Source: a bacterium
Lineage (GTDB): Bacteria > Krumholzibacteriota > Krumholzibacteriia > LZORAL124-64-63
Length of the DNA: 44,319 nucleotides
Reading direction: 5' to 3'
Assembly (NCBI GenBank): GCA_003353795.1
Contig: PIVY01000016.1
Location: 1 to 44,319, forward strand
In this document: one piece after another, positions 2,792 through 41,730 of the stretch
How the letters are laid out: every line of letters begins with the position of its first letter
How positions within the stretch are numbered: the stretch's first letter is position 1
Position numbers and translations under genes: made by a program
Notes under the pieces: generated by a model
What the model was told of the DNA's origin: nothing
The model's database searches: none
The model's input: the letters and a program-made list of their open reading frames with translations, nothing else

Positions 2792-3313
2792 CTAGAAGAC
2801 GATTCCCGCGGACAGACTGATCCAGTTGACACTGGTCTGTTCGGCGCTGAACTGGTGGTAGGACAACCGCCACTCCAGGAGCAGGGCCTTCATCGCCGCA
2901 CCGACCTGCCAGGCGAAATCCGTCTTCCGCTTGGATTCGCCGGCATCGTCGACGCCGCTGTAGTTCGCGAAGCCCAGACCGATGAAGCCCTTCAGGAACA
3001 GGATGTTGACCTGACCGAGGGCCTCGAACTCCCAGGCGTTCACCGTGGGTCCGAATACCGCACCGACCTCGTGGTTGTCCTGCTTGGTCGAGAAATCGTT
3101 GTAGGCCACGATGGCGCCGACGTCGACGATGGGCAGGAGGTTGCCCGTGACGTACGCCCCCAGGTTCCAGCCCGTGCCGGCGGCGTTGGTGAAATCGCCC
3201 GTGGGGAAGTTGATGCCGAAGAAAGCGGAAGAGTCCGCCTGGGCCGCCGGGGCGGTGGACAGTACCAGCAAGATTGCCATGACGACGGCGCTGGCGGTAT
3301 TCCGGAGGATCAT
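2792..3313 (-). CDS. Small outer-membrane beta-barrel protein
   Basis: A 173-residue exported protein with a clear signal peptide (MILRNTASAVVMAILLVLS, cleavage near AQA-DSS). The mature part reads as eight or so amphipathic beta-strands (FFGINFPTGDF, WNLGAYVTGN, VDVGAIVAYNDF and so on) and ends in F (LSAGIVF), typical of small OmpA/OmpW-like or opacity-type barrels. No peptidoglycan-binding domain follows. AAAGGAA lies about 7 bases before the ATG. It is the upstream gene of a likely pair with the Omp85-type barrel. Role unknown; structural or transport roles are possible. Confidence 0.7.
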   Translation of the reverse strand: MILRNTASAVVMAILLVLSTAPAAQADSSAFFGINFPTGDFTNAAGTGWNLGAYVTGNLLPIVDVGAIVAYNDFSTKQDNHEVGAVFGPTVNAWEFEALGQVNILFLKGFIGLGFANYSGVDDAGESKRKTDFAWQVGAAMKALLLEWRLSYHQFSAEQTSVNWISLSAGIVF

Positions 3314-3433
3314 TGGACGTTCCTTTCAGATCTCGATCGTTGCTCACAAGCGGGCTACTCGAGCCTGGCGATGGTAGCAGATCACCGTGCCGGGTCGAGA
3401 ACGAGTTCTGGGAATGCGCCGGAACGCGGCAAC

Positions 3434-4132
3434 CTAGCCCACCAGCGACGCCCAGGTCGCCGGCCCGACGATGCCGTCGGCGGACAGTCCGTGGGCGGCC
3501 TGGAAAACTTTTACCGCCTTCAGGGTACCGCGGCCGAAATGGCCGTCCTCGACCACTCCGGCGCCGCGACGATTCAGGAGCGATTGCAGCACGGTGACGG
3601 CCGGCCCCTGATCGGTGAGGCGCACCACCGGCCGCGGTGCCGGTGCCTCGACGACCGAAGGCCCGACGGGGTCGGATCCCGGGCCAGCGATGGCGCCGAA
3701 CCGATCCAGCCCCAGGACCGCGCGGTAGTCGAACACCGGACAGAGCTTGCTCGACACCTCGCAGTGGCCGTGGATCGTCACGCCGGCGTCGTATGCGCGG
3801 TCGATCTGCCGCGAGAGGTCGTGAATGCTGGCGAACTGCTCTCGGGTGAACTTCTCCTTCGCCAACCCGTGCAGGCAGACGGCGATGGTACCGGTGTTGT
3901 GGCCGGCCTGAGCCGCCGGGATGCGCGTGAGCGGACGACCCTCCTGGACCTCGCCGCTCTTGCGAATGAAGAGATGGTAGCCCACGTCCGACCAGCCGCG
4001 GCCGTCCGGCTCGGGGTCGGTGTGCCAGCGGCGCATCACCGACACGTCGTCGTGATGATCGTGGTCGCTGGCGCTGCAGTGCAGGAAGACGCGATCGACG
4101 GGGCGATCCGGTTTGACGAACAGCATGGTCAT
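3434..4132 (-). CDS. Endolysin-like N-acetylmuramoyl-L-alanine amidase with PG-binding domain
   Basis: A 232-residue, two-domain cell-wall hydrolase. The N-terminal part (about 10-140) is an Amidase_2 domain that should cut the bond between N-acetylmuramic acid and L-alanine. The expected zinc ligands are present: H18 (VFLHCSA), and H123 and C131 in the GHCEVSSKLCP block, with YH at 52-53. The C-terminal part (about 165-232) is a PG_binding_1 domain (LTDQGPAVTVLQSLLN, FGRGTLKAVKVFQ, DGIVGPATW). There is no signal peptide, which fits an endolysin needing a holin or lysis to reach the wall. Its start overlaps the stop of the upstream membrane-protein gene by 4 bases, a holin-endolysin-like arrangement. 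It is the last gene of the cassette divergent from the sheath gene. Confidence 0.85.
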   Translation of the reverse strand: MTMLFVKPDRPVDRVFLHCSASDHDHHDDVSVMRRWHTDPEPDGRGWSDVGYHLFIRKSGEVQEGRPLTRIPAAQAGHNTGTIAVCLHGLAKEKFTREQFASIHDLSRQIDRAYDAGVTIHGHCEVSSKLCPVFDYRAVLGLDRFGAIAGPGSDPVGPSVVEAPAPRPVVRLTDQGPAVTVLQSLLNRRGAGVVEDGHFGRGTLKAVKVFQAAHGLSADGIVGPATWASLVG

Positions 4133-6092: not shown

Positions 6093-6289
6093 ATCCGTAC
6101 CCCTCGATAGCGTTCGGGATGGAACTCCGGGGGCAGGATCGGCGGAGCAGTCAGGCGGGTGCGGGAGCAGTCGCTCCCCCGGGCGATGGCGGCAGTCTAG
6201 CATGGTCGGCGCCGCAAGAGCGAGTGGATTCATCTCATTTAAAGGCAACCCGCAGTGCCAGAACCGCCGGGGGTCGTTTCATTGGGTCC

Positions 6290-7666
6290 ATGATGCGCGC
6301 CTTGCTCATGACCATCCCATTGATCCTCGCGGCCGCGATCCCCGTCCTCGACACCGGCACGGCCGGATTCGTGGGCCTGTCCCAGCAAGGGCCTCTCGAC
6401 ACGCCGACCCTCGTCACATCCTACGAGCAGTACGCCGACATCTTCGGGACCTCCACCGCCGGCCTGGCCAACCCGTTCCTGGCCCCGTCGGTGGCGGGTT
6501 TCTTCGCCAACGGCGGGCAGCGGCTGGTCGTGGTGCGCGTGGCGAGCGCCGACCCGCTGTCGTTCATCGCCGGCCTGCAGACACTCGCCGAGGTGGACGA
6601 GATTGCCGTGGTCGCCATTCCCGGCGCCACTTCGCCCGCGGTACAGGCGGCGCTGATCGCTCACGCCGAAGGCACGCATGACCGCCTGGCCATCCTCGAC
6701 CCTGCAACCACCGACGACATCCAGCTCGTGCAGGATCAGCGGGCCGCCCTCGACGCCGCCGACGGTCACGCCACCCTCTACTTCCCCTGGATCTGGGCCA
6801 CGCCCGCCGGCGAGTCGCTGCTCCTGCCGCCGAGCGGTTTCGTGGCCGGCGTCTATGCGCGTACCGACACGCCCGACTCTCCCGTGGGCAGCATCGCCAC
6901 GGCCACGGACGTGAGCTATGTCGTGACGCCATCGGAGCAGGACATCCTCAACCCGCTGGGCATCAACGCCATCCGCCTCTTCACCGGCAGCGATGTGCGG
7001 GTCTGGGGCGCACGGACCCTTTCCAGCGATCCCGAGTGGCGCTACGTGGCGGTCCGACGCACGGCGCTGTGCCTCGAGGAATCGATCCAGGAGGGCACGG
7101 CCTGGGCTGTGTTCGAACCCAACGACGAGCCGCTCTGGGCACAACTGCGCGGTGACGTGGGCGACTTCCTGTTCGAACGGTGGGCCGACGGCTGGTTCCA
7201 GGGCAGTACGCCCGACGACGCCTATTTCGTGCTTTGCGACCGCAGCACCATGACACAGGCCGACCTCGACGCCGGTCGCACGGTGATCCTGGCGGGCTTC
7301 GCACCGCTGCAGCCGGCGGAGTTCACGGTGCTACGGATCGTGCACGAGCGACCGGCGGTGGGCGTGGCTTTCGAGATACCCGCGGCCGGCCCCGTGCTTC
7401 ACGATGCGGCGCCGAATCCGTTCAACCCGCAGACGCAGATCCGTTTCGACCTGGTCCAGGGCGGATCGGTTCGGCTCGGCATCCACGACCTCGCCGGACG
7501 GATAGTCCGGCGACTGATCGTCGGCACCCATCTGGCGCCGGGTCGCCACGAGCGCCGCTGGGACGGCCGCGACGCATCCGGCGCCAGCGCGCCGTCGGGC
7601 GTCTACGTGGTCCGGCTGGAAGCGAGCGGCGCCGTCCGAATCGGTCAGATCTCACTGGTCCGCTGA
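6290..7666 (+). CDS. Exported contractile phage-tail sheath protein with C-terminal sorting tail
   Basis: A 458-residue protein. Residues 20-350 match the tail sheath family (Phage_sheath_1) throughout: TAGFVGLSQQGP (24-35), VAGFFANGGQRLVVVRV (68-84), DRLAILDP (131-138), LLPPSGFVAGVYARTDTP, DILNPLGINAIR, VRVWGARTLSSDPEWRY (236-252), FEPNDEPLWAQLR, and the C-terminal APLQPAEFTVLRI (338-350). Known sheaths are cytoplasmic and polymerise around a tube. Two features here are unusual. Residues 1-18 form a hydrophobic signal-like segment (MMRALLMTIPLILAAAI) replacing the usual N-terminal PGVYxEE arm, and residues 373-458 are a PNPFNP...W-D-G-R-D...SGVY sorting tail like those on other exported proteins here. 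The start is the ATG pair at 6290/6293; the upstream open frame looks non-coding. Divergent from the small-protein/amidase cassette; no tube or baseplate gene is present. Confidence 0.88.
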   Translation: MMRALLMTIPLILAAAIPVLDTGTAGFVGLSQQGPLDTPTLVTSYEQYADIFGTSTAGLANPFLAPSVAGFFANGGQRLVVVRVASADPLSFIAGLQTLAEVDEIAVVAIPGATSPAVQAALIAHAEGTHDRLAILDPATTDDIQLVQDQRAALDAADGHATLYFPWIWATPAGESLLLPPSGFVAGVYARTDTPDSPVGSIATATDVSYVVTPSEQDILNPLGINAIRLFTGSDVRVWGARTLSSDPEWRYVAVRRTALCLEESIQEGTAWAVFEPNDEPLWAQLRGDVGDFLFERWADGWFQGSTPDDAYFVLCDRSTMTQADLDAGRTVILAGFAPLQPAEFTVLRIVHERPAVGVAFEIPAAGPVLHDAAPNPFNPQTQIRFDLVQGGSVRLGIHDLAGRIVRRLIVGTHLAPGRHERRWDGRDASGASAPSGVYVVRLEASGAVRIGQISLVR

Positions 7667-7754: not shown

Positions 7755-10532
7755 CTACCGCACGAGCACCATCCGCTGCGTGTCGGCATGCTGCGTGCCG
7801 TCGGCGCCGCGGAACTCGAGACGATACAGGTAGACGCCCGAGGCCACGGGGCGGCCACCGGAATCGGCACCGTCCCAGACTCGCGCGTGACGACCGGCGG
7901 CGACAGTGTCGTCGACCAGCGTCCGCACCAGCTGCCCCCGCACGTTCATGATGCGCAGGGTGGCGTGGCCGGATGTGGGCACCGCGAAGGCGATGGTCGT
8001 CCGCGGGTTGAAGGGGTTCGGGTGATTGCCGGTGAGTTCGAAGGCCAGGGGAACGTCCTCGGCCCCCACCACGCCGGTGATGTTGATGGCGATCTGGTCG
8101 GTGGAGGTATAGCCCAGCGCGTCGGTGACCCGCAGCTCGATGGAGATCGGCGCGGGCACGCCCGGCGCGCGGAACCCGGGCAGCAACTCGTCGGTGCTGA
8201 AGTTCTGCTGGTTGGACAGCAGACCGTGGATGTCGGAGTGCCACTCGTACTGGTAGGGCGGCGAGCCGTTGGTCGCGCCGCCGCGGAAGGCCACCTGGGT
8301 GCCGTACTCGAATGAGTCGCCGTCTCCCGGAGCGAGGATCTGGCCATGCACCGGCAGCGAGTCGGATGCCATGTAGAGGCGGGCCGGCACGGTCAGGCGA
8401 CCGCCTTCCTCGCGCGGATCCGGACCGGTGAGGTCGACGTCCATGTAGTAGACGGGGCCCATGAACGTCTGCTGGGACAGGAGTCCTTGCTCGAAGTAGC
8501 CGATGCCGGCATCGCGAACCTGCACTTCCTCGGCGGGGAACTCCGGCGCACCCTGCAGGGCCGCGAATCCGAAGGCGATGAGCTGGTCCAGCGCCGCCTC
8601 CACGGGGATCACGTCCACCTGCTCGCTCACGATCACGTCGCGGCTGACCTGGTTGAACGCCTGGATCTGACCGTCGACGCCCATGGCCACGTGGGTGCGG
8701 CCGCCGTTGCCCACAGCCGGGTACAGCACGTCCGCGCCGTGGTTGGTGCCGATCACCACGTCGTAGGCGAACGGGAACGTCTGGACGATTTCGCCGTCCT
8801 CGCCGATCTCCGCCGCCTCCATCACGTTCACGCCGGCCACGAAGTTGTTCTGGCCCACGAGCTCGAGTTGCTGGAGCGTCTCGAAGGCGCGTGCGCCCGC
8901 CTCGTCCGGGTTCATCTCCACGTCGACCGCGCGCTCGGGTACCACGTGCAGCGCGTCGTTGGTGAACTGCCAGCCGCCCGAGGCGATGTCGCCCGCGAGC
9001 GTGGCCAGGCCCGACGCCGCGGCATAGCCGCTGGCGTCCTCGCGACCCACGGCGAGGTCGGAGCAGTCGAGTCCCAGCATCTCACAGAGGCGCTCGAACA
9101 TCTGGCCGGTGGTGCCGTCATCCATGTTCGGCGGCACGACCCGCATGATCCAGGCGGACTCCGGCAGGCGCTTCTGCAGGACCTCGGGATGCACGGTCAC
9201 CTTGAGCGCCGGGCGCGCGGGGTCGCCGAGCGCCGCGGGCATGACCCACTCGATGGGCGTGCTGGTGCGCTGGACCGCAGCAGGATCGAACACGGCCAGG
9301 CCACCGCCCGCCTTGCTCACCGTGTGGGAGATTGTCCAGTGGGTGGCGTCGGGGCTGTCGGCATACACGGTGCCCTGACCCCAGATCCGTTCGTTGTAGT
9401 GCCGGTTGTCCTCGGCCAGCATGCGCCACTTGTTGCCGGCGGGCTGATGGCTGTCGTTGGCGTGCCACCACGACGAGTAGATCGACCACGACGAGTCGAA
9501 GATGCCGTTGTCGATGAGCTTGCGGGCGATGGTCTTGCCGTAGTTGCTGGAGCCGTTGATGACGTTGATGGCGCCGGAGATGGTGTGGGCGCCGTTGAAG
9601 TTGTTGTGCCAGGCGGTGGACTTGAGGTTGAGGCAGCAGTGGAAGAAGGCCCACTCCAGGTCGTTGTCGCCCCAGGCGCCGTCGGAGTCGGACTGCACCA
9701 TGTTGGCGTCGTCGTGGGAGGTGTTGGCCAGGAAGAGAGCGTCGGTGACGCCGTGGCCGCAGTAGAGGAACGCGTCGGTGGCGTCGAGCCAGTTGTTGTT
9801 GTTGCCGCCCAGGTCGTGGCGCTTGTAGTCGGTCTCCCAGGCGTTGTTGTTGCCCCAGTCGAAGAGCCAGGTCCAGCCGTGGCCGTCGAGGTAGTCGCTG
9901 AAGCGCTGGGCGGTGTTGTTGGGCGAGGAGAGGTCATTGCCGGTGCCGGGGTAGTCTTCGCACCAGTGGTCGGCGACCTCGGCGGCGTCGCGGGTGAGTT
10001 CTTCCTCGAACCAGAAGGCGCCGACCTCGGACACCTCGGGCATGGGGCGGCCGGGCGGCGCGGCAAAGACGAGCTCGAAGCCCTGGTAGCGCTCGGCGGG
10101 CACGGCGAAGGTGACGACGGACCAGTCGGCGGCCGGCGGCAGGCTCACGAAGGTCGCGCCGGCCATCCAGTCCACGTAGGGCCGCAGCAAGTCGACCGTG
10201 ACCGAGCCGGAGCCGCGGTACCGGATCTCGATCTCGTTGGTCCACTCGGCGGCGCCGGCGTAGCGGACGCGGAGATTCGTCTCGGCCAGCTTGGTGGCAT
10301 CGCTGAAGTCGGTCAGGCCGGTTTCCCAGGCCGGGTCGGACAGTCGGGCGCCGATCACGTGGTTGACCGAACGGGCCTCCTCGTGGGTCAGGGCCTTGTC
10401 GGGCGGGAGGGTGCCGCCGCGATTGCGGAGGGGTTCGGCGTCTGCGGAGGCTAGGACGAGTGTCGTCATGAGCACGGTCGTCATGAGCGCCCGGGCCAGG
10501 ACACGTCGTCTATCGTGGGGAAAAAATTTCAT
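7755..10532 (-). CDS. Secreted caspase-fold-like (DUF6345/C25-like) protein with sorting tail
   Basis: A 925-residue exported protein. The signal peptide occupies about residues 1-32. A beta-sandwich-like region follows (about 85-175). The domain at about 185-400 has an arrangement expected of clan CD (gingipain/caspase-like) peptidases: a strand ending in FLYCGHG with H260, then WAFFHCCLNL with C299/C300, and a GSSNYG segment. I recall DUF6345 proteins having this layout, but the exact family is uncertain. A PKD-like segment (about 750-830: GATNGSPPYQYEWHSD, ELRVTDALGY) precedes the C-terminal PNPFNP tail (about 845-925), which should direct export or surface attachment. GAGGTG precedes the ATG. 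It is divergent from a TonB receptor and followed by a strong terminator. Proteolytic activity is inferred, not shown. Confidence 0.7.
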   Translation of the reverse strand: MKFFPHDRRRVLARALMTTVLMTTLVLASADAEPLRNRGGTLPPDKALTHEEARSVNHVIGARLSDPAWETGLTDFSDATKLAETNLRVRYAGAAEWTNEIEIRYRGSGSVTVDLLRPYVDWMAGATFVSLPPAADWSVVTFAVPAERYQGFELVFAAPPGRPMPEVSEVGAFWFEEELTRDAAEVADHWCEDYPGTGNDLSSPNNTAQRFSDYLDGHGWTWLFDWGNNNAWETDYKRHDLGGNNNNWLDATDAFLYCGHGVTDALFLANTSHDDANMVQSDSDGAWGDNDLEWAFFHCCLNLKSTAWHNNFNGAHTISGAINVINGSSNYGKTIARKLIDNGIFDSSWSIYSSWWHANDSHQPAGNKWRMLAEDNRHYNERIWGQGTVYADSPDATHWTISHTVSKAGGGLAVFDPAAVQRTSTPIEWVMPAALGDPARPALKVTVHPEVLQKRLPESAWIMRVVPPNMDDGTTGQMFERLCEMLGLDCSDLAVGREDASGYAAASGLATLAGDIASGGWQFTNDALHVVPERAVDVEMNPDEAGARAFETLQQLELVGQNNFVAGVNVMEAAEIGEDGEIVQTFPFAYDVVIGTNHGADVLYPAVGNGGRTHVAMGVDGQIQAFNQVSRDVIVSEQVDVIPVEAALDQLIAFGFAALQGAPEFPAEEVQVRDAGIGYFEQGLLSQQTFMGPVYYMDVDLTGPDPREEGGRLTVPARLYMASDSLPVHGQILAPGDGDSFEYGTQVAFRGGATNGSPPYQYEWHSDIHGLLSNQQNFSTDELLPGFRAPGVPAPISIELRVTDALGYTSTDQIAINITGVVGAEDVPLAFELTGNHPNPFNPRTTIAFAVPTSGHATLRIMNVRGQLVRTLVDDTVAAGRHARVWDGADSGGRPVASGVYLYRLEFRGADGTQHADTQRMVLVR

Positions 10533-10894: not shown

Positions 10895-13093
10895 ATGCGG
10901 ATCAGCAACGGCAGCAACACGATCAAGATTTACGCCCTGGCCATCGGTGCTGCCATCGTCGCGACCTACTCCCCACCTGCCCGCGCCGCGGACGTCGACC
11001 ACACTCTCGACGACCCCTTCGCCCTCAGCCTCGAGCAGCTGGTGGACCTGCCGGTCGCCACGCTCACCACGGCCGAGACCCGCGAGACTCCCGCCTCTGT
11101 CACCACCATCGACCGCGAGATGATCGACGCATCGGGTGCCCGCACCCTCAATGAACTCCTCGACATCTTCGTGCCCAACGTGCAGATCATGCGGCACAAT
11201 TTCGGGTTGCCGCACGTGGGCGTACGCGGTGTCATCGGCGACCGCGACGACAAGTACCTGCTGCTGGTCAACGGCAAGGTCATGAATCACCGTACCCAGG
11301 AAGGCGCCTTCACCGAGCGCGACCTGCAGCTCCTGGGCGACATCCGGCACATCGACGTGATTCGCGGACCGGGGTCGGCGATCTACGGCCCCGGCGCCGT
11401 GTCCGGCGTGGTGAACGTCGTGACCCTCGATGGCCGGTCGTTCGACGGCGTGGAGGTCACCGGACGCGTCGGCGGGGTCGACCAGTTCGCCTCCATGGAA
11501 GCCAGGGCGGGCGCGCGGGTGGGCGAATCAGGCTCGCTCTTCGCCTACTACGGCATCGCGGACGTGAGTGGCTCGTCGCAATCCGACAGCCCCCTGGTCT
11601 ACGGCGTGACCGGGACCTCCCGCGGGGGCGAGGTTCCGGTGAGACCAGGTGAGCCGATCGCCATCGACGTACCCGACGACGGCCGCATGTACCGCGGCAG
11701 GGCCAAGCACAAGCTCCACGCCGGCTACCGCAGCGACGATCTCTCGATCTGGGTACGCTGGACCCGCGGCGGCATGGACCTGCCCTCCGAACGCGGCACG
11801 CTCCTCGATCCGCCCGAGGGCCGCGACCTCGACCAGATGAGCCTCGACGAGATCTCGAGCAACGAGTTCGGCTACCACCAGTTCACGGCCCTGGGCGAGT
11901 ACGACTGGAAGCTCGATCCACGACTGAACCTGGAGTTCACCGCCAGCTACGACGCCCTCGACTTCGAACGCCTGCGCGACCGCCCCGACCTCAACACGCG
12001 CAGCTACCTCGAGAGCGAGATCTACGGCCGCATCCTGGCTCACTGGCGACCCGGCACAGCGCACACCATCGCCGGCGGCATCTCCTACTCCCGCGAGATG
12101 TTCGGCCGCTCGAGCCCAGGCTTTCCCGACCTACCGCCCGCCACCCAGCGCCAGCCCGAGGTCCAGCCCTGGGACACCGACACCTGGTCGTTCATGGCCG
12201 AGGACCGCTGGCGCATGGGCGACCGCGTGACCACCTTCCTCGGCCTGCGCGCCGACAACCACACCTACACCGATATCTTCTGGTCGCCGCGCCTTGCCGT
12301 CGTCCTGGACACCGGAGCGGCGAGCACCTTGAAGGCCATCGCGAATCGCTCGCAGCGCCGGGCCGGCGACGACGAGCTGCGGCATCAGTGGCTCGAGACG
12401 GAGACCTTCGCCGACCCCGAGGAGATCAACGCGCTCGAACTGCGTTACGACCAGGGCTGGAGCCGACCCTGGAGCTGGGCCGTCGTGGGCTACTTCAACG
12501 ACGTGGACATCGTGGCGCGCAACAGTCTCCTGGAACGCAACGTTCTGCTGGGTGAATTCCAGACCTGGGGCGTGGAGCTCGAGCTTCGGCACCACGGCGA
12601 CCGCGACGACTTCCGCGCCAGCCACGGCTACACCAACCTCATCGACTTCACCCTGGAGGACGCCACGAGCATCCAGGGGTTCTCGGCCAAGCCCTACGGC
12701 TACGGCAACGACCTGGCCAACTGGTCCAATCACGTGACCAAGCTCGCCTACACCCGCCATCTGAGCGACCGCTGGCAGGCCTCGACGTCATTGCGGGTGT
12801 ACTGGGAATTCGCCGGCGCCAGGGACCAGACGGAGTGGAACTCGCAGCTCGCGACACCGTCCTTCGCCTTCGGTCTGGCCGACGCGGGATACGACGAGGC
12901 CTTCGGCGCGAACGTGTACTGGAACCTCGGCGCGGAGTACCGGCCGACGCCCCGGCTGCGGCTGCGCCTGGACGGTTACAACCTCGCCGGCCTGTTCGAC
13001 GAGGAGCTCAACAAGCGGAACTACATCCTGCGCGTATCCGACTACCGGTCCGAGGCGACCGCCCTGGCATTGACGGTGGCCTACCGATTCTGA
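10895..13093 (+). CDS. TonB-dependent outer-membrane receptor
   Basis: A 732-residue receptor for active uptake across the outer membrane using TonB energy; the ligand is unknown. The start ATG has AGGAG 6 bases upstream and opens a signal peptide (about residues 1-30, ending ARA). The plug domain follows with family motifs: PASVTTIDREMID, GARTLNELLDIFVPNV, GVRGVIGDRDDKYLLLVNGK, and the hallmark HIDVIRGPGSAIYGPGAVSGVVNVVT. The rest is a long barrel with aromatic-rich strands ending in F (ALTVAYRF). The early LSLEQLVDLPVATLTTAETRETPASVTT resembles the linker typical of colicin I/vitamin-type receptors of FCB and Proteobacteria. It ends 4 bases before a convergent lipoprotein gene. Confidence 0.88.
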   Translation: MRISNGSNTIKIYALAIGAAIVATYSPPARAADVDHTLDDPFALSLEQLVDLPVATLTTAETRETPASVTTIDREMIDASGARTLNELLDIFVPNVQIMRHNFGLPHVGVRGVIGDRDDKYLLLVNGKVMNHRTQEGAFTERDLQLLGDIRHIDVIRGPGSAIYGPGAVSGVVNVVTLDGRSFDGVEVTGRVGGVDQFASMEARAGARVGESGSLFAYYGIADVSGSSQSDSPLVYGVTGTSRGGEVPVRPGEPIAIDVPDDGRMYRGRAKHKLHAGYRSDDLSIWVRWTRGGMDLPSERGTLLDPPEGRDLDQMSLDEISSNEFGYHQFTALGEYDWKLDPRLNLEFTASYDALDFERLRDRPDLNTRSYLESEIYGRILAHWRPGTAHTIAGGISYSREMFGRSSPGFPDLPPATQRQPEVQPWDTDTWSFMAEDRWRMGDRVTTFLGLRADNHTYTDIFWSPRLAVVLDTGAASTLKAIANRSQRRAGDDELRHQWLETETFADPEEINALELRYDQGWSRPWSWAVVGYFNDVDIVARNSLLERNVLLGEFQTWGVELELRHHGDRDDFRASHGYTNLIDFTLEDATSIQGFSAKPYGYGNDLANWSNHVTKLAYTRHLSDRWQASTSLRVYWEFAGARDQTEWNSQLATPSFAFGLADAGYDEAFGANVYWNLGAEYRPTPRLRLRLDGYNLAGLFDEELNKRNYILRVSDYRSEATALALTVAYRF

Positions 13094-28156: not shown

Positions 28157-30160
28157 CTACCGCACGAGCATCAATTTCAGCGCGCCGTCCGAATCCTGCG
28201 TCAGGATCCGGCAGAAGTACGTGCCCGACGGCACGGCCTGGCCCGCGTCGTCGCGTCCGTTCCAGCTGGCCGAGTGCTGGCCCGGCTGGCGCATGCCCTC
28301 GTCCAGCGTGCGCACCAGCCGACCCCGCACGTCGAACACGCCGAGCGTGATCTCCGCCCGGTTCGCCACGGCATAGTTAACGGTCGTCAGGGGATTGAAT
28401 GGGTTGGGTGCATTGCCGAGCAATCTGGTGGCCGGGGGCGTCTCGTCGCCCGGGACGTCGAGCGGGTCGGGGACCAGCCAGTTCACGATGCCCTGCATGA
28501 GGGCGGCGCGGTCGGCCGCGTTGTCGATGGCCTCGAAGCCGAAGGCCAGGTAGACGACACGGAAGGTTCCGGTGTCGGCCTTGATCGCACCGTTGCGGGC
28601 GGCATCGTAGGTGAGGATCACCGACGCGTCGGCGCCCCGCGGGTCGATGTCGCTGGGGTACTCCTGGTTATTGGCGCCGTCGCCGCCCGAGATGTTCAGG
28701 CTCAGGCCATTGCTGATGGGATCACCCGCCACGCCCTGGAGCTGCAACATGTTGGTGTCGTCGGCGACGTAGGTGGCGTGCAGGTAGTTCTGGTACCACG
28801 CGAGAGCGGCGCCCCCCTGGTCCGCCATCTCCCAGCCGATGTCCTGGCCGGTGATGAAGAGAGTGCCGCCGCCGTCGAGATAGGCCGACAGGGCCGCGCG
28901 ATCGTCGGCGTCGACGGTGGGGAAAGCCCAGCCGCACGACCACACCACGGCGTCGAAGTTGTCGAGGACGGCCGCGGTGACAGCCGTGGAGTTGCGATCC
29001 CAGGTTGCGAAGCTCCGGCCGGTTCCGGCCAGGGCGGGCGCGAAGTAAAGGCTCTCGTAGTCGTAGGCGCCGTCGTCATCGACGAGGAGGATCTCGGTGC
29101 CGGTCGTGATGACCTTGTAGGTGATGGAGCGGTCGCCGGACGCACCGCCGCGAGAATGGAAATTAAGGGTGACCTCGCCCTCGCCGGGGCCGGCGGCGTC
29201 GATGACCACGTTGAACGAGCCGTGGTCGCCGGCGCCGAGGAGCAAATTCAGCGCGGTGAAATGGCTCGTCTCGTGGATGAAGTAGCTGTTCCAGCCGGCG
29301 GGCAGGCTCGACGTGTCGAGGGTCACGTCGTACATGTCTTCCAGGTTGCCGGCGTTGAACAGCGCCGCCTCCTCGAAAGTCACGACGCCGCTGTCGATGA
29401 CCGTGCGATCGCCGAGAGCGAAGTAACGCATGCAGTAGTCGGGTGTCGGACGGGAGTTGCAGGTCTGCAGGACGGCCTTGTCGCCGTCGCGCTGTACGAA
29501 GGCGATGAGGCGCATGTTGGCCGGATTCCAGGTGCCGTCGATGCTGAACGACAGGGGCACGACCTGCGTCTGACCGGCCTCGCTGATGGTCAGCGACACG
29601 TCGGGCAGCAAGTCCCGCAGGATGTTTTCGTAGACGGTGCCGCCGTAGGTGAGGTGATCCTCGACCACGGCCACGCGCAGATAGGTGGCGGCGATGTCGG
29701 CGAGGTCGTCGGTGAGTTCCAGATTCACGGTGCACGAGGACCCGAGGTTGTCCAGAACCACGTCGGTGAGCGACATCTTCAGCGGTGTGGCGTCGTCCAG
29801 CAGCTTCTGCACCACCGGATCGTAGACGCTGCCGTTGATGGCGTCGGTGCCGGCACCCACGATCATGTCACCGCCGTTGAAGAGCAAGTGGGGCAGGCCG
29901 TTGTTCCCATAGTACGTGATCCGGGCGTCCGAATCGGGAGCGCCGAGACCACCACTGGTGGCCATGTATTCGATGGAGTCGAACTCGATGACGTCGTAGC
30001 GGTCGTGCATGACCTGCAGACCGGCGCGTGCGCGCGGGCAGTAGCCTCACCATGTGGCCGAGCCCATTTCCACGACGATATTCCGGGGCACCAGAGCCAT
30101 GGCCGGGATGGCCGTGACCGCGAGGAGGACGAACGCGAGCAGCAGGCGGGTGGCTTTCAT
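28157..30160 (-). CDS. Predicted exported selenoprotein, Omp28-like, Sec-Gly-Tyr-Cys
   Basis: Read through an in-frame TGA at 30049-30047, this 667-residue protein begins at an ATG with AAGGA upstream and has a signal peptide (MKATRLLLAFVLLAVTAIPA, to about residue 22). Next comes VVEMGSATW-U38-GYCPRARAG: a thioredoxin-fold redox site of the Omp28-like family, in which U38 stands where C-x-x-C proteins have the first Cys; C41 is the second. YYGNNGLPHLLFNGG follows as the family's cis-Pro/loop block. A ThuA/glutamine-amidotransferase-like domain lies at about 355-565 (ILLVDDDGAYDYESLYF, GGGTLFITGQDIGWEM), and a PNPFNP sorting tail at about 597-667. Without recoding, the ORF would begin at 30010 and lose both signal and redox site. 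A stem-loop sits just after the TGA. A point mutation or sequence error at a Cys codon is the alternative. Confidence 0.75.
30000..30023 (-). promoter_or_regulatory. SECIS-like hairpin for UGA recoding
   Basis: On the minus strand CGGTC-TGCA pairs with TGCA-(C)-GACCG: 9 base pairs with one bulged C and a 5-base loop GGTCA. The loop begins 32 bases after the in-frame TGA. Bacterial SECIS elements are small stem-loops inside the coding region just after the UGA, with G near the start of the loop; the spacing and loop fit. This is a visual match, not a computed fold. Confidence 0.6.
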
Positions 30161-30527
30161 GATCGATCCTTCGACGAGTTTGGCGGGCCGGGGGCTCGAA
30201 TGAGATGAAGATGATAACATAGAATCTCTGACGGAGTCGGATAGTCGTCCTCACGGCTCGCGGGTCGGCATGCCGCCAGAGGACTCCAGAGCGCCGTTGG
30301 CGGGACCACGATGTGTAACAAGAACGGCCCCCCCAAGTGCGTTTCATGCGATCCCTCCATCGCATGTGAGTGTGGATTCCATATGGGCAGGAATCCGCGA
30401 ATGCATCTCCCGGGCGCCGCCAAGGAATCCCGGCGATTCAATGCCAGCGCAACTAGATTGACCCAATCGGCCTCACGGGGCACGCCGTCGACAATCCGTC
30501 TCCGGTCGCCGCCGTCAGGGCCAGGGG
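30161..30527. other. Divergent intergenic region
   Basis: A 367-base gap between the selenoprotein gene (-) and the radical SAM gene (+). An AT-richer stretch at about 30205-30240 (ATGATAACATAGAATC) may hold a promoter for the minus-strand gene. A Cys-rich open frame from 30311 runs into the radical SAM gene and is judged non-coding. No RNA gene or strong hairpin seen. Confidence 0.45.
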
Positions 30528-38574: not shown

Positions 38575-39969
38575 CTACCGTACGAGCGACATCTTCCCCG
38601 TCTCGACACGGTCGCCGGTGGCCATCCGGACCATGTAGGTGCCCGAGGGCACGGCGCGGCCGGTGCGGTCTTGCCCCGTCCAGGTCACCGAGTGGATGCC
38701 AGGATCGAAGATCCGGTCGGCGACGGTCGCGACCTGCCGCCCCGCGAGGTCGTACACCGAGACGCTCACCTGCTGGGTGCGTTCCACCACGAACGCGATG
38801 GCCGTGACGGGGTTGAACGGGTTGGGGTAGTTGCCCACCAGCCGGGCCGCGGGCAGGTTCTCCGATGCCGCCAGCACCGTGCTCGCCGAGAGCCTCGCGG
38901 CCAGGGTGTGGTGGGTGTCGTCGGCGTGGTAGGAGCCCACGGCCCAGACGTCGCAGGCATCGATCTTGGCGAGACCGCGCCATGCCGTCGTCGCCGCGCC
39001 AGGAATGTCGGGGCTGGTTCGCTGATGCCAGGCCGTGCCGTCCCACTGATAGAAGACGAAGCCGGCGATCAGCGAGTAGGACGTGGCCCACGCATCGTCG
39101 GGCGCCAGGACGGCGACCTGGGACAGCGGTGCATCGGATGGCGGCCCGTCCTGCTGGGACCAGGCGCTGCCGTCCCAGTGGAGAGACAGGTGCTGGGACC
39201 AGTTGATGTAGCCCACGATCCAGAGGTCGTCCGGGGCGCAGCCGTCGATGTCGCGGAAGAAGATCGGCTGCTGCCCATCGAAGGGCGTCGGTATCGACGT
39301 CCACGCGGAACCGTCCCAGTGCTGGACGTATCCGCGATACTCGCCGCGCTGGTCGCCGCCGTACCCGACGATCCACACGTCGTCGGGACCGGCCGCGTGA
39401 ATGCCCTCGGGATAGTTCAACGTCAGGAATGGCAACGGCGCCGAGGACAGTGTCCAGTCCGACCCGTCGAAGTGGACGATGCCATTGGTGCTGGTCAGGG
39501 CCCAGACATCCGACGACGAGGTCGCCGACAGGTCGAGCGCGGCGCCGGCGCTGAGGATCAGGTCGATACGGTCGATGGCGCCGTCTCTGGCCCGCAAGAA
39601 GAACAGCTCGCGTTCGTAGACGGAATACGGGCGGGTACCGGTGAGCCAGACGTCCCCATCGGGGCTGCTGCCGGCCGAGGAGAACGCGATCCCCTCCACC
39701 TCCGCGGGCACCGGGAATTCCATCCACTCGCTGCCGTCGAAGTAGAGGATCATGGGCAGCGTGGTCGGACCGGATCGCGATCCGACCGCCCAGGCCGTGC
39801 CGTCGTTGGACGCGGCCACGTCCACGAGCGCGTTGCCTGTGGTGCCCGGATTCGGGGTCGTGACCTGCTGGAAATCGCCGCACGACTGGGCCGTGGCGGA
39901 GTGGTACGGGAAGAACAGGAGCGCCAGGGCAAGGATCGCAAGGAACCAGGAGTGTCGATCGTGTTTCAT
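38575..39969 (-). CDS. Secreted propeller-like protein with sorting tail
   Basis: A 464-residue exported protein. Start at the ATG giving MKHDRHSWF, with AAGG five bases upstream. Signal peptide to about residue 27 (LFFPYHSATAQ). The body (about 45-370) consists of repeated segments with an AW-W-D-G-S-x-W core (YFDGSEWMEF, HFDGSDWTLS, HWDGSAWTSI, HWDGSAWSQQ, QWDGTAWHQR) alternating with DDVW/D-x-W-A-V-G turns, as in a beta-propeller. The C-terminal tail (about 385-464) has YPNPFNP, VSVYDLAGRQV, VTWTGQDRTG and SGTYMVRM. Probably a surface or extracellular protein; no ligand can be inferred. Confidence 0.7.
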   Translation of the reverse strand: MKHDRHSWFLAILALALLFFPYHSATAQSCGDFQQVTTPNPGTTGNALVDVAASNDGTAWAVGSRSGPTTLPMILYFDGSEWMEFPVPAEVEGIAFSSAGSSPDGDVWLTGTRPYSVYERELFFLRARDGAIDRIDLILSAGAALDLSATSSSDVWALTSTNGIVHFDGSDWTLSSAPLPFLTLNYPEGIHAAGPDDVWIVGYGGDQRGEYRGYVQHWDGSAWTSIPTPFDGQQPIFFRDIDGCAPDDLWIVGYINWSQHLSLHWDGSAWSQQDGPPSDAPLSQVAVLAPDDAWATSYSLIAGFVFYQWDGTAWHQRTSPDIPGAATTAWRGLAKIDACDVWAVGSYHADDTHHTLAARLSASTVLAASENLPAARLVGNYPNPFNPVTAIAFVVERTQQVSVSVYDLAGRQVATVADRIFDPGIHSVTWTGQDRTGRAVPSGTYMVRMATGDRVETGKMSLVR

Positions 39970-40057
39970 GGCAACCTTCCTTCCGACTTGAACCACCTCT
40001 CACCACGCTGAGACACTAGGCAATTGATCGCGCGATGTCTGTGACCGCGATCACTCA

Positions 40058-40110: not shown

Positions 40111-41469
40111 TCAATCTTGCCGCAGAATCTTGGTCTCCACCGATCCCGCCGACGTCGTCACGTGCACGAAGTACATCCCCGCCGGCGTCCGCCGCCCCTG
40201 GGCGTCGCGACCGTCCCAGAGCGCGCGGCCAACGCCATCTCCCGACGCAGACGTTGCGAGCGATCTCACGAATCGACCCCGAACGTCGTACACCGTGACC
40301 GCCACCGGCGTCGCTCCCGGAACCTCGTATCGGATGTCGACCTGCGCCGTGAAAGGATTCGGGGCTGCATCGACCCGTCCGCCAATCATCGACGGCCGCG
40401 CATCGACCACCGGCAACGGCGTGTCGTCCCAGCGCGCGATTCGCTGCGACGGCTCGCCCCCCGCGTTCTGGAAATTGCCCCCCACGATCAGGCTTCCCCC
40501 GAAGGTCGTGAGCGCGTTGACGAGCCCGTCCATGCCTCCGTCGAGGTCGCTCCAGGTGGCGCCATCCCACTGCGCGATCCTGGGCGCCGGCAGTCCCCCG
40601 GCCTCCATCAACGGGCCACCGGCGATGAGGTTCTCGCCGTAGACCGTGAGCGCATGGATCCCCACGGTGACGCCATCGCCGAGCGGCGACCAGGACGACC
40701 CGTTCCACCGCGCCACGTAGTTCACGTCGAGGACGTTCGGCGGCGCGCCGACCTGGGTGAAGAACCCGCCCACGATCAGGTCGCCGCCATGGGTCGCCAG
40801 CCCCCGGCCTCCCCCGTTCATTCCGGTCTCGAGATCGTCCCAGGAGGTGCCGTCCCAGCTCGCGATCGCCAGTGCCGGATTGCCGCCGGCCTCGGTGAAG
40901 TCGCCCCCGACGAAGAGAATCCCCTCGTGAACATGAAGCACGTTGACCGGCCGGTCGACGCCGCTGTCCAGGGTGGACCAGGAGGACCCATTCCAGCGTG
41001 CGATGCGATTGGCCGCGGCTCCACCGGCCTGGAGGAAAAAGCCGGCGACCACGAGTTCGCCGTCGTACACGGCGAGGGCCGTGACGACATCGTCCACCCC
41101 GACACCGAGAGCGCGCCAATGCTCACCGTCCCACGCCGCGACATGATTCACGTCGACGCCGCCTGCGGCATGAAACTTCCCGGCGGCGACGAGTTCGCCG
41201 TCGTACACGGCCAGGGCGTGGACATCGTCGTCCATGCCCGCGCCGAGCGCCGACCATGCCGCGCCGTCCCAGGCGGCGATGAAGTTCGCGGGCGTGGACC
41301 CCGCGTTGGCGAAGTCACCACCGACGATGAGTTCACCCTCGTACTCAGCCAGCGCTCGCACTCGAGCATCGAGGCCGTTGGCGGCGAATCCGTCCCACCA
41401 TGAAGCGTCGGCTCCAGCGGTGATCGCGGTGGTCACGATGGCGGTCAGTAGTATCGTGCGAGTCAGCAT
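40111..41469 (-). CDS. Secreted seven-repeat (propeller-like) protein with sorting tail
   Basis: A 452-residue exported protein; the ATG at 41469 has GGAGG upstream and opens a signal peptide (to about residue 22). About 45-residue repeats run from about 30 to 350. I count seven, each with the core V-x-A-L-x-V-Y-x-G-E-L-x-V-G-G-x-F, A-G-G, N-x-I-A-x-W-D/N-G-x-x-W-x-x-L-G/D-x-G-M/V. Seven such units fit a seven-bladed beta-propeller. The C-terminal tail (about 365-452) has PNPFTAQVDIRY, VYDVRGRFVRSL, LWDGRDAQG and AGMYFV; it departs from the usual PNPFNP motif. GGDF and IVGG repeats make the gene internally repetitive. Ligand unknown. Confidence 0.75.
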   Translation of the reverse strand: MLTRTILLTAIVTTAITAGADASWWDGFAANGLDARVRALAEYEGELIVGGDFANAGSTPANFIAAWDGAAWSALGAGMDDDVHALAVYDGELVAAGKFHAAGGVDVNHVAAWDGEHWRALGVGVDDVVTALAVYDGELVVAGFFLQAGGAAANRIARWNGSSWSTLDSGVDRPVNVLHVHEGILFVGGDFTEAGGNPALAIASWDGTSWDDLETGMNGGGRGLATHGGDLIVGGFFTQVGAPPNVLDVNYVARWNGSSWSPLGDGVTVGIHALTVYGENLIAGGPLMEAGGLPAPRIAQWDGATWSDLDGGMDGLVNALTTFGGSLIVGGNFQNAGGEPSQRIARWDDTPLPVVDARPSMIGGRVDAAPNPFTAQVDIRYEVPGATPVAVTVYDVRGRFVRSLATSASGDGVGRALWDGRDAQGRRTPAGMYFVHVTTSAGSVETKILRQD

Positions 41470-41730
41470 GGGGTACGACCTCCGGTGGGAGCGTCCTGGG
41501 TGGCGGATCAGCGGATGAAAGCTTCGGCAAAGGGGAACTTCACTGGAACGCCCGCCAACCATCGCCCGTGCGATCCATCCCTGAATGCTGATGATTGTAT
41601 CATGTCTTCGTCCACGTTTCGCGTTGGACTACTCCCGGGTCGCCGTCACGAGGCGCCGGCTCACATCGGCGAGGGAATCAAGTTGCAGACGATGCTCTAC
41701 GGGCAGCGACGAGGTCGCAAGAAACACGAC

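Follow-up and report, generated by a model that had tools for sequence, protein, structure and literature searches.

An Omp28-like gene interrupted by a single TGA

The window, by which we mean the whole 44,319-nt stretch of DNA that was analysed, contains on its minus strand a 667-aa frame whose only in-frame stop is a TGA at residue 38 (positions 30049–30047); the coordinates of this gene and of its features are collected in Table 1. The initial annotation had read the frame as open upstream except for this one TGA, with a signal peptide and a ribosome binding site preceding it, and both elements are indeed in the sequence, the first as MKATRLLLAFVLLAVTAIPAMA and the second as GAAGGA. Around the TGA, the deduced product reads MKATRLLLAFVLLAVTAIPAMA|LVPRNIVVEMGSATW-U-GYCPRARAGL, with the TGA replacing the first Cys of a W-C-x-x-C-P motif (SATW-U-GYCP), which is precisely the position that had been claimed for it. 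The open reading frame obtained for this gene with translation table 11 is 28157–30010, starting at ATG 30010. Standard calling, as anticipated, thus loses the signal peptide and the active site, and gene calls cut proteins of this type just past the active site, dropping the signal peptide.

Table 1. Features of the Omp28-like gene, in positions of the window.
Feature	Position	Strand	Basis
Complete recoded CDS	30160 (ATG) to 28157 (TAG)	minus	667 aa, one in-frame TGA
Candidate ribosome-binding site GAAGGA, 6 nt before ATG 30160	30167..30172	minus	sequence reading
Predicted Sec-type signal peptide MKATRLLLAFVLLAVTAIPAMA	30095..30160	minus	inspection; hydrophobic N-terminus conserved in homologues
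TGA codon, predicted to be read as selenocysteine (U38)	30047..30049	minus	TGA conserved at the homologous site; selenocysteine machinery genes
Putative U-G-Y-C redox motif (U38–C41)	30038..30049	minus	C38, C41 and P90 invariant (29 and 64 sequences)
SECIS-like hairpin CGGUC-UGCA-[GGUCA]-UGCA-C-GACCG	30000..30023	minus	-12 kcal/mol, covariation, codon-shuffle z 7.0
Thioredoxin domain and Omp28-type beta-sandwich, residues 24–237	29450..30091	minus	AlphaFold, structure match, Pfam Omp28
FlgD_ig / T9SS type A-like sorting tail	28160..28456	minus	FlgD_ig over, Por_Secre_tail under cut-off

Homologues of the gene and selenocysteine machinery of the host

A contig scan with the single window protein as query gave no matches. 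A profile of the N-terminal domain was used to search 80 genomes of the phylum and identified homologues in 40 of them, dozens of which contained exactly one internal TGA. The homologues analysed comprised 50 with a TGA and 22 with TGC or TGT at the same codon, the latter being the Cys homologues that the initial annotation had proposed to align. In all 50 TGA homologues the codon occupies the first position of CxxC; one further TGA form (TAIT-U-GFC, L045) was seen but left out of this set. The existence of dozens of homologues with exactly one TGA, always at the CxxC site in those analysed, indicates that the TGA frame is not due to chance. A sequencing error, with TGC or TGT as the true codon, was also rejected, because the TGA is kept in 50 homologues from many metagenome-assembled genomes (MAGs).

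The genome of the window contains, in addition, two tandem paralogues situated on contig C539 (37–38 % identical; SATW-U-VYCP and SATW-U-GYCP) and a fourth, more distant Omp28-like gene on contig C77 (SNGW-U-DPC). Subfamily A, to which the window protein belongs, includes 19 TGA forms of about 670–710 aa, and subfamily B 28 TGA forms of about 880–910 aa with the motif SADG/N-U-PYCPSAV; both are separate supported clades, and a third small clade mixes selenocysteine and Cys forms. Subfamily A also holds one Cys form (SVT-C-GYC, codon TGC; L044), and four changes are needed to place the selenocysteine and Cys labels on the tree. Residues U38, C41 and P90 were invariant in 64 aligned sequences (U written as C), and the block upstream of the TGA, with the signal peptide and the motif VPR..V.E..SATW, is conserved across the family. 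The named relatives are mostly MAGs assigned to Candidatus Krumholzibacteriota or Krumholzibacteriia.

The source genome is a 5.72-Mb MAG in 953 contigs, 86 % complete and with 4.3 % contamination. Genes selA, selB, selC and selD had been singled out as those to look for in it, and all four are present. The tRNA-Sec scored 70.6 bits (gathering score 47) and was called SeC(tca) by ARAGORN, whereas the scores were 451 bits for selA (cut-off 268), 331 bits for selB (cut-off 242), with an intact C-terminus, and 352 bits for selD (cut-off 125), which itself has an in-frame TGA at the usual SAG-U-AAK site. Gene selA was detected in 78 of the 80 genomes of the phylum, making contamination an unlikely source of the machinery genes; it went undetected in two genomes carrying a TGA form (G047 and G070), plausibly because these MAGs are incomplete. 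Contig C77 carries both selD (2981–3901) and the Omp28-like TGA gene mentioned above (11920–12663), ca. 8 kb apart, the product of the latter being shorter, T9SS-tailed and ending in MVLMK.

The stop codons of 15 sampled tail-bearing genes from the same genome were TGA in five cases, one of them in the window, TAG in eight and TAA in two. TGA is therefore a normal stop, and its genome-wide reassignment was rejected. That the TGA of the window gene is read as Cys or Trp, by a general change of the code or by another recoding mechanism, might be suggested by the Cys that relatives have at this position. Nevertheless, this stop codon usage, the presence of a complete selenocysteine pathway with a selenocysteine-type selD, and the specificity for TGA forms of the hairpin described below make such a reading extremely improbable.

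A conserved hairpin downstream of the TGA

Bacterial SelB requires a hairpin directly 3′ of the UGA whose apical loop opens with a G. Conserved guanosines of the apical loop were also marked in the study that predicted the GOS_C family (PMC2398784). The apical loop of the window hairpin, GGUCA (30014–30010), begins 32 nt after the UGA and has G in its first two positions; the hairpin alone folds at -12.0 kcal/mol, and ATG 30010, the conventional start, falls inside it. RNA folding after the TGA, which the initial annotation had proposed as a check, was unremarkable with the single sequence (z -0.22), and the structural evidence is instead comparative.

A codon-shuffle test with a free choice of the best hairpin did not separate selenocysteine from Cys forms (mean z -0.59 vs -0.36, p 0.15). 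This test was too permissive and was replaced by one with a fixed register, using 300 codon shuffles that kept the protein and followed the codon usage of the gene. With the loop starting at +32 nt after the UGA, subfamily A was above all 300 shuffles (z 7.0), as was subfamily B with the loop starting at +16/17 nt (z 12.5 and 10.7), and the small third group had a similar signal at 16 nt (z 6.3), while the z of the Cys forms was never above 2.3; the sequences in these tests are related and not independent, and the z-scores are not probabilities. In the stem of subfamily A, 77.6 % of the cells were paired and 19 cells were changed on both sides, with a covariation of 0.368 compared to 0.223 ± 0.027 in the shuffles (0/500) and to a maximum of 0.170 when the register was slid. 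RNAalifold did not produce a useful consensus for subfamily A, probably because the size of the inner loop shifts, and Rfam had no match at the hairpins. Among the hairpin tests, only those with a fixed register and multiple sequences are strong.

These results bear on whether the TGA could be a true stop, the functional product being a protein of 617 aa starting at ATG 30010 and the upstream part being vestigial. Mechanical ORF calling yields precisely this frame, and a Met recurs at the place of ATG 30010 in several close relatives (GLAVM); however, other TGA forms, both tandem paralogues included, have a Cys or an Asn instead, and the ATG is part of the conserved hairpin. Additionally, the supposedly vestigial region is conserved family-wide, and the truncated product would keep its secretion tail yet lose its signal peptide, so that we give this possibility very little credence.

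The finding of about fifty relatives with the same TGA makes recoding very probably real, and from the sequence data UGA 38 of the window gene is almost certainly decoded as selenocysteine. The machinery genes and the 50 TGA homologues thus give strong support to the proposal of the initial annotation that an exported, Omp28-like protein carrying a sorting tail has a selenocysteine at the first CxxC position. Decoding of UGA 38 would be carried out by the SelA/SelB/SelC/SelD system, directed by the hairpin with the GGUCA loop, 32 nt downstream of the UGA, where bound SelB would deliver the selenocysteinyl-tRNA.

Fold, export and known relatives of the window protein

In the structure predicted by AlphaFold with 64 homologues (pLDDT 91; 48 with three sequences), a thioredoxin domain comes first and a beta-sandwich follows it. 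Among solved structures, by far the best match was HBP35 from P. gingivalis (5y1a; Foldseek E 1.3e-12), which aligned in VIA-align over 206 residues with Z 23.8 and rmsd 2.2; for the Omp28 domain 2r2c, Z was 8.6. Pfam Omp28 (PF11551, gathering cut-off 34.9) scored 33.8 bits with the whole protein and 37.0 bits when the signal peptide and the C-terminal part were removed. A thioredoxin fold that bears a U-x-x-C motif together with an invariant Pro is the layout typical of oxidoreductases. Situated in an HBP35-like thioredoxin domain with an Omp28 sandwich, this motif would most likely make the window protein a selenol/thiol oxidoreductase with an extracytoplasmic substrate, which would reduce or exchange disulfides or peroxides outside the cytoplasm, and we consider a redox role of this kind quite probable.

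The main functional rival to the oxidoreductase role is one related to haem, in which the selenoprotein would mainly bind haem or metal at the surface, like HBP35, with the selenol as a ligand and not as a redox catalyst. The combination of U-x-x-C, thioredoxin fold and invariant Pro at residue 90 argues against it, as does the fact that nothing in this analysis points to haem; we therefore deem it rather unlikely, even though HBP35, the best fold match, has a part in haem utilisation by P. gingivalis (PMC3120885).

The tail of the window protein scored 43.1 bits with FlgD_ig, above the cut-off, and 17.3 bits with Por_Secre_tail (cut-off 27), whereas that of its closest paralogue reached 30.5 bits with TIGR04183, above the cut-off of 23. 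The T9SS translocon SprA was found in the genome of the window (G000; 516.6 bits combined) and in 78 of the 80 genomes of the phylum. Together, the FlgD_ig/T9SS-like tail, the paralogue exceeding the TIGR04183 cut-off and the presence of SprA indicate that type IX surface display is the likeliest destination. The signal peptide would take the protein out via the Sec export pathway, and the tail would then probably direct it to the SprA-type translocon, by which it would reach the cell surface or the exterior; judging from tail and translocon, we give a surface location about an even chance.

Tails of the FlgD/T9SS-like kind recur at more than 100 places in the same genome, among the matches listed, which predicts a very large secretome; examples in the window are 38575–39996, 40111–41562 and 7755–10532, the last being a minus-strand gene for a DUF6345 protein (127.6 bits) with a FlgD_ig tail. 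The plus-strand gene at 6119–7666 encodes a phage tail sheath-like protein (Phage_sheath_1 41.5 bits and Phage_sheath_1C 35.4 bits, each above its cut-off) that ends in a FlgD_ig tail, so that a sheath fold is unusually combined with a secretion tail. Judging from the counts for selA and SprA, nearly every member of the phylum seems to use selenocysteine and to have a type IX-like translocon.

More broadly, Krumholzibacteriota might display selenocysteine oxidoreductases on their surface as type IX cargo, divided by duplication into two large subfamilies with SECIS elements at +32 and +17, a tentative proposal that we rate slightly short of evens. If true, the phylum would possess redox selenoproteins built for work outside the cell as type IX cargo. 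With a selenol on what is probably type IX cargo, the questions arise of why selenium is spent on an exported protein and of what is reduced.

The initial annotation knew of no such site in the Omp28 family, but this was wrong: NCBIfam model NF045500 is named ‘Omp28-related selenoprotein’, and a 2026 review (PMC13188914), the only source mentioning NF045500 in the literature searched, equates it with GOS_C, with a UxxC motif. GOS_C, with 74 selenoprotein sequences and a Trx-like fold, was predicted in 2008 without functional evidence (PMC2398784). In the literature searched we found no paper dealing with Omp28 together with selenoprotein, or with Krumholzibacteriota together with selenocysteine. 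The window protein matches NF045500 along residues 27–233 with 54 bits (E 1.8e-14), and the model matches weakly all 29 family members scanned (best E 6e-21); at E ≤ 1e-20, it had no match in any of the 80 genomes of the phylum. By sequence comparison, the family appears as an unmodelled sister branch of NF045500/GOS_C, a known kind of selenoprotein, and as a well-supported selenoprotein clade that the sole existing model widely misses. Both share a UxxC on an Omp28-related, Trx-like fold, but the window protein misses the curated cut-off of 200 bits and is distinguished by a length of about 670 aa with a long C-terminal part, by a SECIS loop at +32 and perhaps by its sorting tail.

HBP35 has a thioredoxin motif (WCGYCP) and reaches the surface by way of the Por (type IX) system (PMC3120885). 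It resembles the window protein in the thioredoxin and sandwich fold and probably in the C-terminal secretion domain; the window protein has selenocysteine instead of Cys and a long extra middle region, and the two share 16 % identity. Likewise, the Omp28 domain of the outer membrane lipoprotein Omp28 (PF11551, 2r2c) matches residues 81–236 of the window protein, which differs in its borderline score, in having a full thioredoxin-type site with selenocysteine, and in the lack of a visible lipobox.
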